A stretch of DNA of 64,000 bases from Pseudomonas sp. Leaf58. Its GTDB lineage: Bacteria > Pseudomonadota > Gammaproteobacteria > Pseudomonadales > Pseudomonadaceae. The notes under the pieces are model-generated. The model saw only the letters and a program-made list of their open reading frames with translations, ran no database searches and was not told the origin of the DNA. Of this stretch, positions 4,278 through 47,153 are shown in pieces. A program made the position numbers and the translations under genes. Where the stretch lies: NCBI RefSeq assembly GCF_003627215.1, contig NZ_CP032677.1:5337501-5401500 (forward strand). The letters are read 5' to 3'. Positions within the stretch are counted from its first letter, which is position 1. Each line of letters begins with the position of its first letter.

Positions 4278-6386
4278 ATGCCGGGTATAGAAGCTTTGGC
4301 CGAACGGCTGTCGACCTATCTTGGCCCCGAACAGGTCAACCTGGTTCGGCGCGCCTATTTCTACGCCGAACAGGCCCACGATGGGCAGCGCCGCCGCAGT
4401 GGCGAACCCTACGTGACCCACCCGCTGGCCGTGGCCAGTATCCTCGCCGACATGCACATGGACCATCAGAGCCTGATGGCGGCCATGCTGCACGACGTGA
4501 TCGAAGACACCGGCATCGCCAAGGAAGCCCTCAGCCAGCAATTTGGCGAGACGGTGGCTGAACTGGTCGATGGGGTCAGCAAGCTGACCCAGATGAACTT
4601 CGAGACCAAGGCCGAGGCGCAAGCTGAAAACTTCCAGAAAATGGCCATGGCCATGGCCCGCGATATCCGCGTGATCCTGGTCAAGCTGGCCGACCGCCTG
4701 CACAACATGCGCACCCTGGAAGTGCTGTCCGGCGAAAAACGCCGGCGCATCGCCAAGGAAACCCTCGAAATCTATGCCCCCATCGCCAACCGCCTGGGGA
4801 TGCACACCGTGCGCGTGGAGTTCGAGGACCTCGGCTTCAAGGCCATGCACCCGATGCGCTCGTCGCTGATTCACCGGGCGGTGAAAAGCGCACGCGGCAA
4901 CCGTAAAGAGATCGTCGCCAAGATCGAACACTCGCTGGCCAACTGCCTGGCTGCCGACGGCATTCAGGGCGAGGTCAGCGGCCGGCAGAAACACCTCTAT
5001 GGCATCTACAAGAAGATGCGTGGCAAGCGCCGCGCCTTCAACGAAATCATGGACGTGTACGCCTTCCGCATCATCGTCGACAAAGTCGACACTTGCTACC
5101 GCGTGCTCGGCGCCGTGCACAACCTGTACAAGCCGCTGCCCGGTCGCTTCAAGGATTACATCGCGATCCCCAAGGCCAACGGCTACCAGTCGTTGCACAC
5201 CACGCTGTTCGGCATGCACGGCGTCCCCATCGAAATCCAGATCCGCACCCGCGAAATGGAAGAGATGGCCAACAACGGCATTGCCGCACACTGGCTGTAC
5301 AAGTCCAATGACGAAGAGCAGCAAAAGGGTAGCCACGCCCGCGCCCGCCAGTGGGTCAAGGGCATCCTCGAGCTGCAGCAACGTGCGGGCAACTCGCTGG
5401 AATTCATCGAGAGCGTGAAGATCGACCTGTTCCCGGACGAGGTCTACGTGTTCACGCCAAAAGGCCGCATCATGGAGCTGCCCAAAGGCTCCACGGCCGT
5501 CGACTTCGCCTACGCGGTGCACACCGACGTTGGCAACAGTTGCATCGCCTGCCGCATCAACCGCCGCCTGGCACCGCTGTCCGAACCGCTGCAAAGCGGC
5601 TCGACGGTGGAAATCGTCAGCGCCCCGGGGGCACGGCCGAACCCGGCCTGGCTCAACTTCGTGGTTACCGGCAAGGCGCGCACGCATATCCGCCACGCGC
5701 TCAAGCAGCAGCGTCGCTCCGAGTCCATCAGCCTGGGCGAGCGCCTGCTGAACAAAGTGCTCACCGGCTTCGACAGTAGCCTGGAGAAGATCCCCGAGGA
5801 GCGTATCCAGGCAATCCTCGCCGAGTACCGCCTGGAAGTGATCGAAGACCTGCTCGAGGACATTGGCCTGGGCAACCGCATGGCCTACGTGGTGGCGCGC
5901 CGCCTGCTGTCGGCCGACGGCGAGCAGCTGCCGGCGCCAGAAGGCCCGCTGGCGATCCGCGGTACTGAAGGCCTGGTGCTGAGCTACGCCAAGTGCTGTA
6001 CGCCGATCCCGGGTGACCCGATCGTCGGCCACCTCTCGGCCGGCAAGGGCATGGTGGTGCACTTGGAAAACTGCCGCAACATCAGTGAAATCCGCCACAA
6101 CCCAGAGAAGTGCGTACAACTCTCCTGGGCCAAGGACATCACCGGCGAGTTCAATGTCGAGCTGCGGGTCGAACTGGAGCACCAGCGCGGCCTGATCGCG
6201 CTGCTGGCCAGCAGCGTCAACGCCGCCGACGGCAACATCGAGAAGATCAGCATGGACGAACGCGACGGCCGTATCAGCGTGGTCCAACTGGTGGTCAGCG
6301 TGCACGACCGTGTGCACCTGGCGCGTGTGATCAAGAAGCTGCGTACCCTGACCGGTGTGGTCCGCATCACCCGCATGCGTACGTAG
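4278..6386 (+). CDS. spoT: Bifunctional (p)ppGpp synthetase/hydrolase
   Basis: A 702-residue cytoplasmic enzyme of the stringent response. The order of domains is: HD hydrolase (about 20-150, catalytic His72-Asp73 in LHDVIEDT), RelA/SpoT synthetase (about 220-340, with [24 protein letters not shown] pattern), TGS (about 385-445, [13 protein letters not shown]) and C-terminal ACT (about 630-700). The intact HD motif shows it is a SpoT/Rel-type protein that can hydrolyse (p)ppGpp, unlike RelA. AGGAGG lies 10 nt before the ATG at 4278. Upstream is rpoZ and 23 nt downstream is ridA. Confidence 0.96.
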
Positions 6387-45623: not shown

Positions 45624-47153
45624 TCACTTTCTCCAGGCCTTGCGCAATTTCATCAAAGCCTCGGCAATCTCCCCCTCGGGCACCGCCGCAAACCCCAGCA
45701 CCAGCCCTGCCCGCTTATCCACAGGCACCTGGCTGTCCGCTAGCCAGAAATTGCTTAGCGGCGTCACCTCCACACCCACCGCTTCGGCCCGGGTTACCAG
45801 TTCCTGCTCCCGGGCAAAGTTATCCACATCTACCTTCACATGCAGCCCAGCCGCCACTTCCGGCATGCCGGCCAACCCTGGAATATCCACAGGCCAACCG
45901 GCCTTCAACACGTTTCGCCGGTTCAAAGCCGCCTTGCGCATGCGTCGGATATGCCGCTGGAAGTGCCCCCGGGCCATGAACTCGGCCATCACGCACTGGC
46001 TGCTAACCTCCGAATGCCGTACCGCCAGCGCCCTACCCTGGCTGAACGCCTGCGCCAGCTGCGGCGGGAGCACCAAGTAACCCAGGCGCAGCGCCGGAAA
46101 GGCGATTTTGCCGAAGGTACCCACGTACAACACCCGCCCGTGCCGGTCGAGCGCTGCAAGCGGGGCCAAGGGGGCGCCGCTGTAGCGGTATTCGCCGTCG
46201 TAGTCGTCTTCGATAACCCAGCCATCGCTGCGCTCGGCCCAGGCCAGCAATTCCAGGCGTCGCGCCAGGCTCATGGTCACCCCGGTCGGGTACTGGTGGG
46301 CTGGTGTGACATAGGCCAGCCGGCAATTCGCCAGCTGGCCGAGCCGGCGGCAGTCCATGCCATCCTCATCCACTGGCATGCCATGCAGCCTGCCGCCGGC
46401 CAGTGCAAAGGCATGCCCGGCCGCGCGGTACCCCGGGTTTTCCACAGCCACACCATCGCCTGGCTGCAACAGCAACTGTGCACAAAGGCTGATGGCCTGC
46501 TGCGCACCACTGGTGATCACAATTTGTTCAGCCGTACAACTCAGGCCACGCGAGCGACGCAAGTAGGCCGCGATCAGTTCGCGCAACAGCGGTTCGCCAG
46601 CCGGGTCGCCATAGCTCAGTTGCGAAGGGGCTGGTTTGCGCCAGAAACCCGCCTGCAGCTTGGCCCAGACGTCGAATGGAAACAGGTCGAATGCCGGAAT
46701 GCCTACCCGAAAAGCACGCGGCGCACCGCTTCGAGGCGGCGGCAAGTGGTTATTTTTCAGGCGCTGCAAAGGCTCGCTCAAACTTCGGTTGCTGGATAAA
46801 TCCTCAGTATTTTCTGAAGAAAATGTGGATAACTCTGTTGATAACCCCAGGGATAACCCTGTGGATAGTTGTGTGGATAGTTTTGGCAGCTGGCTAACGT
46901 ACGTGCCATCGCCTACTCGGCTTTCGATGAAGCCCTCGGCATAAAGCTGGTCATACGCACGCACCACGCTATTGCGCGACAGCGCCAGCATGGCGGCCAG
47001 GTCACGGCTGGCCGGTAGCCGCGTGCCACTGCTCAGTCGCCCGTCCAACACCCGCGCGCGCAACGCCTGGTACAGCTGCTGGCTGAGACCGCGGCGCCGA
47101 TCGAGGGCGATCCCGGCAGGGTCGAAAGGCAATACAAGGGGCTGCTCGCTCAT
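45624..47153 (-). CDS. MocR/GabR-type transcriptional regulator (GntR HTH plus aminotransferase domain)
   Basis: 509 residues. A GntR winged HTH (about 15-88, LPASRDLAAMLALSRNSVVRAYDQL pattern) is joined by a linker (about 89-145) to a type I aminotransferase-like domain whose PLP-binding Lys lies in GTFGK near residue 348. Such proteins sense amines or PLP. The linker contains five tandem LSTx tetrapeptides (residues 92-110) encoded by rare TTA/CTA/TCC/ACA codons, described separately. The gene is divergent from paiB across 90 nt with an inverted-repeat operator candidate. It may regulate the polyamine genes nearby. Confidence 0.92.
   Translation of the reverse strand: MSEQPLVLPFDPAGIALDRRRGLSQQLYQALRARVLDGRLSSGTRLPASRDLAAMLALSRNSVVRAYDQLYAEGFIESRVGDGTYVSQLPKLSTQLSTGLSLGLSTELSTFSSENTEDLSSNRSLSEPLQRLKNNHLPPPRSGAPRAFRVGIPAFDLFPFDVWAKLQAGFWRKPAPSQLSYGDPAGEPLLRELIAAYLRRSRGLSCTAEQIVITSGAQQAISLCAQLLLQPGDGVAVENPGYRAAGHAFALAGGRLHGMPVDEDGMDCRRLGQLANCRLAYVTPAHQYPTGVTMSLARRLELLAWAERSDGWVIEDDYDGEYRYSGAPLAPLAALDRHGRVLYVGTFGKIAFPALRLGYLVLPPQLAQAFSQGRALAVRHSEVSSQCVMAEFMARGHFQRHIRRMRKAALNRRNVLKAGWPVDIPGLAGMPEVAAGLHVKVDVDNFAREQELVTRAEAVGVEVTPLSNFWLADSQVPVDKRAGLVLGFAAVPEGEIAEALMKLRKAWRK
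45715..45723 (+). other. Exact DnaA box 1 in the MocR gene
   Basis: TTATCCACA, identical to the consensus DnaA 9-mer. Near-matches with one change are at 45883-45891 and 46438-46446. Confidence 0.5.
45820..45828 (+). other. Exact DnaA box 2 in the MocR gene
   Basis: A second TTATCCACA in the same orientation, 105 nt from the first. Confidence 0.5.
46824..46880. repeat. Five-unit 12-bp tandem repeat of DnaA-box-like sequence
   Basis: 9-mers start at 46824, 46836, 46848, 46860 and 46872: TGTGGATAA, TGTTGATAA, CAGGGATAA, TGTGGATAG, TGTGGATAG. The period is exactly 12 bp. The first is a perfect DnaA box (reverse), three others differ from the box by one base, and the CAGGGATAA unit by more. In the protein each unit encodes LST or LSL plus a variable residue. 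Confidence 0.85.

Follow-up and report, generated by a model that had tools for sequence, protein, structure and literature searches.

A row of five DnaA-box-like units, set exactly 12 bp apart, lies within the coding sequence of a MocR-type regulator gene of Pseudomonas sp. Leaf58, about 47 kb before dnaA (dnaA at C1:16; C1 is 5,431,558 bp). The row is conserved as DNA across the orthologs read from the genus and is retained in lineages that no longer have the gene. Since the array can outlive its gene, the sequence seems to serve a purpose as DNA, probably that of setting the frequency of chromosome replication. On the strength of these sequence comparisons, we favor the reading in which the array, although hosted in coding sequence, serves the chromosome as a regulatory site for DnaA binding and would draw off DnaA near oriC in the way of the DnaA-box clusters (DBCs) of Bacillus subtilis and datA of Escherichia coli.

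As far as the literature searched goes, little is known of the means by which pseudomonads restrict initiation to a single round per cycle. The papers that it yielded on control sites deal with E. coli and B. subtilis, and no description of a comparable site in Pseudomonas appeared in the openly available literature that was searched. A review notes that additional DnaA in P. putida failed to repress the promoter of its own gene (PMC8203912). A candidate control site that is conserved, compact, dispensable and recodable with the protein unchanged makes the initiation question directly testable. The array further provides a clear natural example of regulatory DNA laid over coding sequence, with lineages in which element and gene have parted both ways.

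The array and its host gene

The window, meaning the whole 64,000-nucleotide stretch of DNA that was analyzed, carries the array on the minus strand. Its features are given below, with mismatches counted against the DnaA-box consensus TTWTNCACA.

45624..47153, minus strand: host gene, a MocR/PdxR-type regulator with a GntR helix-turn-helix (HTH) and an aminotransferase fold, 509 aa
47244..47873, plus strand: FMN_bind_2 protein gene, the divergent neighbor and synteny marker for orthology
46824..46880, minus strand: array of five DnaA-box units, 57 bp, 12-bp period, in frame in the MocR linker (LSTQLSTGLSLGLSTELST)
46872..46880, minus strand: unit 1, CTATCCACA, one mismatch
46860..46868, minus strand: unit 2, CTATCCACA, one mismatch
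46848..46856, minus strand: unit 3, TTATCCCTG, three mismatches; in register, no usable DnaA box in this window
46836..46844, minus strand: unit 4, TTATCAACA, one mismatch
46824..46832, minus strand: unit 5, TTATCCACA, a perfect DnaA box and likely the high-affinity anchor

Read on the minus strand from 46880 to 46824, the array is CTATCCACA caa CTATCCACA ggg TTATCCctg ggg TTATCAACA gag TTATCCACA, and all of its units are direct repeats in one orientation at exact 12-bp steps. A preliminary description of this DNA had listed five 9-mers every 12 bp, one perfect and three with a single mismatch; its coordinates and content were right, the remaining 9-mer having three mismatches. Tandem Repeats Finder placed 12-bp arrays at 46824-46867 and 46860-46882. 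In frame, the array begins 274 nt into the host gene and encodes residues 92-110, between the GntR HTH (residues 23-86) and the aminotransferase fold (residues 173-419), which bears out its earlier description as an LST repeat in the interdomain linker written with TTA/CTA leucine codons.

The host protein scores 422.3 bits against NCBIfam NF052282 (MocR-like PdxR), above the cut-off of 320, a match that supplies a family name and no tested function; against NF052281 (rhizopine MocR) its 424.9 bits fall short of the cut-off of 650. An FMN_bind_2 gene is the divergent neighbor at 233 of the 241 loci where MocR was matched, a count in which some genomes are represented more than once. The FMN_bind_2 gene is followed by a GNAT gene and by a further ORF that is presumably also acetyltransferase-like.

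The window has four boxes of at most one mismatch in the five 12-bp registers. When 64 kb of sequence was simulated 200 times under a Markov-1 model, no 12-bp chain held more than one such box in 187 runs, and the maximum was two in the other 13. When synonymous codons were re-drawn for the window's own residues, an equal number of boxes appeared in 0 of 100,000 trials. A strict pair pattern, YTWTCMACANNNYTWTCMACA, found two matches in the 6.34-Mb genome, both within the array, and the reversed control of the pair pattern found two matches in 199 genomes. Single DnaA-like 9-mers of at most one mismatch number 58 in the 64-kb window against a shuffle mean of 45.5, with 4 of 100 shuffles reaching 58; as isolated 9-mers are barely above chance, the anomaly is the array and not the single 9-mer.

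Conservation and constraint on the DNA

Conservation was followed through a search of 199 genomes of the genus, 193 of which gave a MocR-like match at E 1e-60, paralogs included. Linker DNA was read for 110 orthologs, made up of 30 loci and 80 further places among the matches listed, and the array is kept in 109 of them. Boxes of at most one mismatch occur in 102 of the 110 orthologs at unit 1, 78 at unit 2, 52 at unit 3, 106 at unit 4 and 109 at unit 5, the last being a perfect box in all 109. A near-invariant strong box therefore ends a row of boxes that differ in which base is wrong.

The codons that spell these boxes vary little. In unit 5, TTA is found in 109, TCC in 110 and ACA in 109 of the 110 orthologs; unit 1 has TCC in 109 and ACA in 104, and unit 2 has TCC in 106 of 110 and ACA in 109 of 109. 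Over the 110 orthologs, the gene has a median synonymous difference of 0.50, and all five of the 10-codon windows with the least difference (0.14-0.17) lie on the array. TTA and CTA together make up 383 of 447 leucine codons in the arrays of the orthologs versus 241 of 5903 outside the linker, and ACA makes up 470 of 489 threonine codons versus 117 of 1485. Boxes of at most one mismatch number 4.06 per array, compared with 0.05 after synonymous re-drawing, where the highest of 200 runs reached 0.12.

A sixth perfect box, TTATCCACA, is present in 76 of the 110 orthologs in another reading frame, as part of V-I-H, and 75 of these 76 have it at one common distance from unit 5. In all 80 named loci (the best 80 of 572 relatives, including P. 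putida, P. monteilii, P. entomophila, P. fluorescens, P. koreensis and others), at least three boxes stand in the five registers at the array versus at most one box in the rest of the gene. The place of the sixth box and the single boxes of the host gene in the window are as follows.

46778..46786, minus strand: place of the sixth box of other species; no box in this window
46438..46446, plus strand: single box TTTTCCACA in the host gene, perfect at the same alignment place in 41 of 110 orthologs
45820..45828, plus strand: single box TTATCCACA in the host gene, perfect at the same alignment place in 28 of 110 orthologs
45715..45723, plus strand: single box TTATCCACA in the host gene, perfect at the same alignment place in 35 of 110 orthologs

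The preliminary description had suggested that repeat expansion tunes the spacing between the two domains, and that orthologs be compared for changes of copy number in whole 12-bp units. Neither the idea nor the expected variation was borne out, because the five-unit register is nearly constant and orthologs without the array have a quite different linker. The exceptions to the register are an ortholog with four units (L164), a pseudogene with four units (G037) and three close relatives (L002-L004) with a 15-bp insert that is out of the 12-bp register and carries a degenerate extra LS motif.

A constraint on the protein or its translation was also weighed, in which the LST repeat is needed as a flexible linker or the rare TTA, CTA and ACA codons slow translation at the domain border. 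The repeat is indeed in frame at that border, and these codons are rare in this gene family. We nevertheless find this explanation very improbable, given that the sixth box is out of frame, that other orthologs are entirely without this linker sequence, that deletion or fragmentation of the gene has left the array in place, and that TCC varies as little as TTA and ACA without being a rare serine codon here. Pausing at rare codons was rejected on the out-of-frame box, the arrays without a gene and the frozen TCC.

The constraint had earlier been assigned to the DNA, the protein or both. The DNA part of this claim stands on the frozen synonymous sites, while the protein part is disfavored by linkers that lack the array and arrays that lack the gene. 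Constraint at the DNA level is strongly supported by the frozen synonymous sites, the out-of-frame box and the survival of gene loss, and the same observations lend strong support to the original reading of the units as putative DnaA boxes.

Distribution in the genus and separation from the gene

Among 199 genomes of the genus, 160 matched a pattern for the whole array that allowed up to three mismatches, and none matched the reversed control; the matches were read in part. This prevalence excludes a strain-specific accident, a possibility that the first description had raised. Reading of further genes added G192, G094 and G037, for a total of 163 of 199. The 36 genus genomes without the array consist of 27 with a short-linker ortholog, one that has lost the array (G129) and eight with no MocR match at E 1e-120, three of which have a weaker MocR-like match at E 1e-60. 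From G129 and the 27 short-linker genomes, it follows that the array is dispensable.

The 27 array-less orthologs of the genus and 11 orthologs from other genera carry other linker sequence, so the protein itself can do without the array. All four g12 orthologs among these 11 (L165, L246, L247 and L264) are without the array and have a single TTATCCACA at the start of the linker, which is possibly the seed of the array. A genome labeled as genus g9 (G326, locus L141) does have the array. In a protein tree calculated with the linker removed (62 proteins, 40 with the array and 22 without), there are two changes of state, which we read as one gain and one loss on a tree made by a quick method with a midpoint root and 16 of its 59 forks open.

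An order-level scan with the array pattern matched 7 of 293 genomes, and the reversed control 1 of 293. Five of the seven are from the genus, one is a weak match outside long reading frames (G677), and one is G630, from another family of the order. In G630 (L306), CTATCCACA units stand at 12-bp steps in a different gene and frame, within a YPQN/YPQD repeat 81 kb from dnaA. This row is possibly a case of convergence, a single one that recent duplication could also explain.

Two genomes of the genus retain the array without an intact host gene. In G043, no MocR or FMN_bind_2 match was found at E 1e-3 in the surrounding 5.5 kb, and the array is still present as TTATCCACA caa GTATCCACA ggg TTATACCCA agg TTACACACA ggt TTATCCACA (mismatches 0, 1, 1, 1, 0). 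It is flanked by a GNAT gene and a sulfur-transport gene (Pfam), with dnaA 53 kb off, and a relative of this sulfur-transport gene adjoins MocR in G094. G037 has only fragments of MocR (the start and residues of about 256-271 and 436-450) in a broken frame with a best E of 0.046; its four array units have mismatches of 1, 1, 1 and 0, and dnaA is 103 kb off. These two retentions are the strongest evidence for a function of the DNA, although the cases are few and G037 also keeps other scraps of the gene. The reverse separation is seen in G129 (L083), where an intact gene has a linker of similar length from which every unit and the sixth box have disappeared. There the gene and dnaA share a contig, 2.1 Mb apart, and the loss of the array so far from dnaA is suggestive only as support for the function of the site.

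DnaA is also a known transcription factor (PMC8203912), and it might bind the array in that role, blocking or modulating the transcription of the host gene or of the FMN_bind_2 and GNAT genes and so coupling them to the cell cycle. The array is 364 bp from the start of the divergent FMN_bind_2 gene, and in both G043 and G037, whose MocR and FMN_bind_2 genes are missing or fragmentary, it is found upstream of the nearest GNAT gene. Regulation of these genes nonetheless seems unlikely as the explanation, since the array survives the loss of both the host gene and the divergent neighbor, and nearness to dnaA would be left unexplained.

An RNA element, or a binding site of MocR itself serving autoregulation, is scarcely credible. 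Direct repeats do occur in the binding motifs of some MocR regulators (PMC5320631), but the array remains where MocR has been lost, and the operator reading was rejected on this ground. The main text of a regulon paper makes no mention of this FMN-binding neighborhood. RNA structure was likewise rejected, because the fold of the region is no better than that of shuffles (z -0.33) and no Rfam match was found at E 0.1.

Position near dnaA and comparison with known DnaA-box sites

The array is not oriC, which is expected next to dnaA and with an AT-rich unwinding element: the array is about 47 kb away, and another cluster of boxes is found 78-341 bp ahead of the contig start, where dnaA begins. 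In 35 of 36 genomes, mostly closed, the distance from the gene to dnaA is 48-158 kb, the exception being G029 at 1335 kb; this count leaves out G065, G110 and G015. In 63 of 65 cases with both genes on the same contig, the distance is 48-174 kb, with G094 at 274 kb and G192 unplaced; the count leaves out 12 genomes with the genes on different contigs, and same-contig drafts bias it to short distances. As the array of G029 is intact with the gene about 1.3 Mb from dnaA, a place near dnaA is not strictly required. Among eight array-less genomes placed by hand, five also have the gene less than 190 kb from dnaA (G113, 68 kb; G078, 126 kb; G138, 106 kb; G109, 125 kb; G177, 187 kb) and three have it far away (G194, G041 and G164), so nearness alone is no mark of the array-bearers. 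Nearness to dnaA is partly inherited synteny and not independent evidence.

Perfect boxes are dense in this part of the chromosome. The 800 kb around dnaA contain 55 copies of TTATCCACA against a Markov-1 expectation of 1.9, of which 36 are no more than 50 kb from dnaA and 19 fall in the other 700 kb. About 300 permuted 9-mers gave a mean of 0.26 and a maximum of 4 in the inner 100 kb, compared with the 36 copies of TTATCCACA, which rules out a composition gradient near the origin as the cause of this density. Counts of TTATCCACA relative to the reversed control are similar in array-bearing and array-less genomes (five genomes). Among 72-bp clusters of DnaA boxes in the same 800 kb, the array ranks second to oriC, by weights of our own choosing and by the narrow margin of 2.05 to 2.0 for six clusters with two perfect boxes each.

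Several observations concern this halo of boxes, which extends 50 kb either side of dnaA. The array sits at its edge (G000 C1; L117, L118, L283-L286), and seven copies of TTATCCACA fall within 1.3 kb just outside the window, 27.8-29.2 kb before dnaA (G000 C1). Far from dnaA, six copies are found in 2 kb over ORFs at 365.0-367.1 kb of G000 C1 (L119, 7050-9066). In the array-less genome G078, which has dnaA near position 1, the last 49 kb of its listed matches contain 16 copies.

The enrichment raises the possibility that the array is a passive sink, a dense member of many titrating boxes near oriC with no filament or nucleotide effect. The imbalance between 36 boxes in the 50 kb either side of dnaA and 19 in the other 700 kb speaks for this, as does a similar, broader enrichment reported for E. 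coli, where boxes, counted mainly in windows of 10 centisomes, are over-represented near the origin and argued to titrate DnaA (PMC12371093). Here, by comparison with E. coli, the copies of TTATCCACA crowd into the roughly 50 kb nearest dnaA, and a tandem array is among the sites (PMC12371093). Passive titration is conceivable, though we doubt that it suffices, since it predicts scattered perfect boxes and not the fixed 12-bp register of one strong box with one-mismatch boxes found in 109 of 110 orthologs.

The DnaA of this genome carries the motif GGRDHTTVLHACRKI, the usual signature of DnaA domain IV. We infer that DnaA would bind the array in a cooperative and nucleotide-dependent manner with an effect on initiation. 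In the regulatory site that we favor, the near-invariant perfect box of unit 5 would anchor DnaA, and the weaker boxes, pointing in the same direction and little over one helical turn apart, would fill cooperatively to form a short filament, most likely with ATP-DnaA; the combination of an anchor and weak boxes in one direction is what suggests cooperative filling. In most of the other species read, the strong sixth box could add to this filament. Lying mostly 48-174 kb from dnaA, the site would be doubled soon after initiation, and we propose that it therefore draws off DnaA, and perhaps helps to inactivate it, at the time when re-initiation must be prevented.

Clusters of DnaA boxes in B. 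subtilis are reportedly oriC-proximal, as the title of a 2012 paper by Okumura and colleagues is said to put it. Six such DBCs lie outside oriC in that species and are proposed to limit free DnaA, according to two papers (PMC5295017, PMC13220808). The present array resembles the DBCs, as described there, in that its boxes are closely grouped away from oriC, with one perfect and three one-mismatch boxes in 57 bp, and are near the origin across relatives. It differs in that its boxes form a single tandem row, fixed in 12-bp register within coding sequence, where B. subtilis has six clusters. A site of the DBC kind is bound by DnaA, and its removal advances initiation.

In PMC4585315, datA of E. 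coli is described as five boxes outside oriC, with conserved sites and freer spacers, always close to oriC. Five units outside and close to oriC, with conserved sites and freer spacers, are likewise found here. By the same account, datA is non-coding and needs an IHF site and set spacing, whereas the array is in the MocR reading frame with its units in one direction (PMC4585315). The IHF consensus WATCAANNNNTTR was not found near the array in 110 coding sequences, its 10 matches each lying at least 800 nt downstream of unit 1. Given that this search gave no IHF site by the array and that the locus is coding, the array is not classed as datA. Sites of the datA type also stimulate hydrolysis of the ATP bound to DnaA.

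DARS1 and DARS2 of E. coli, in the same source, have a core of three boxes and a conserved location and reactivate DnaA, DARS2 needing Fis and IHF (PMC4585315). They share with the array the form of a short DnaA-box cluster outside oriC at a conserved location, and they differ in their core of three boxes and in an effect opposite to the one proposed here (PMC4585315). All units of the array are direct repeats at 12 bp. A more specific proposal can be advanced with low confidence. The array may be a datA equivalent within a coding gene, an IHF-free filament site in 12-bp register that would inactivate or lock ATP-DnaA soon after fork passage, fix the synonymous codons of its host across much of the genus and outlive the gene in some lineages.

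Other 12-bp box pairs recur in these genomes. One is TTACCCACAAAGTTATCCACA here (L118, about 6130-6150; G000 C1, 26.1 kb) and, for example, TTATCAACAAAGTTATCCACA in relatives; it is also found in G190, G163, G003, G015 and others, at 26-34 kb from dnaA in the genomes where it could be placed. It directly precedes an ORF that we take to be dprA. Another recurrent pair, CTATCAACA(C/A/G)AGTTATCCACA, was seen at L124, L125, L127 and L131, with several of the genomes being without the MocR array, and its copy in L124 lies at the 3' end of an ORF.
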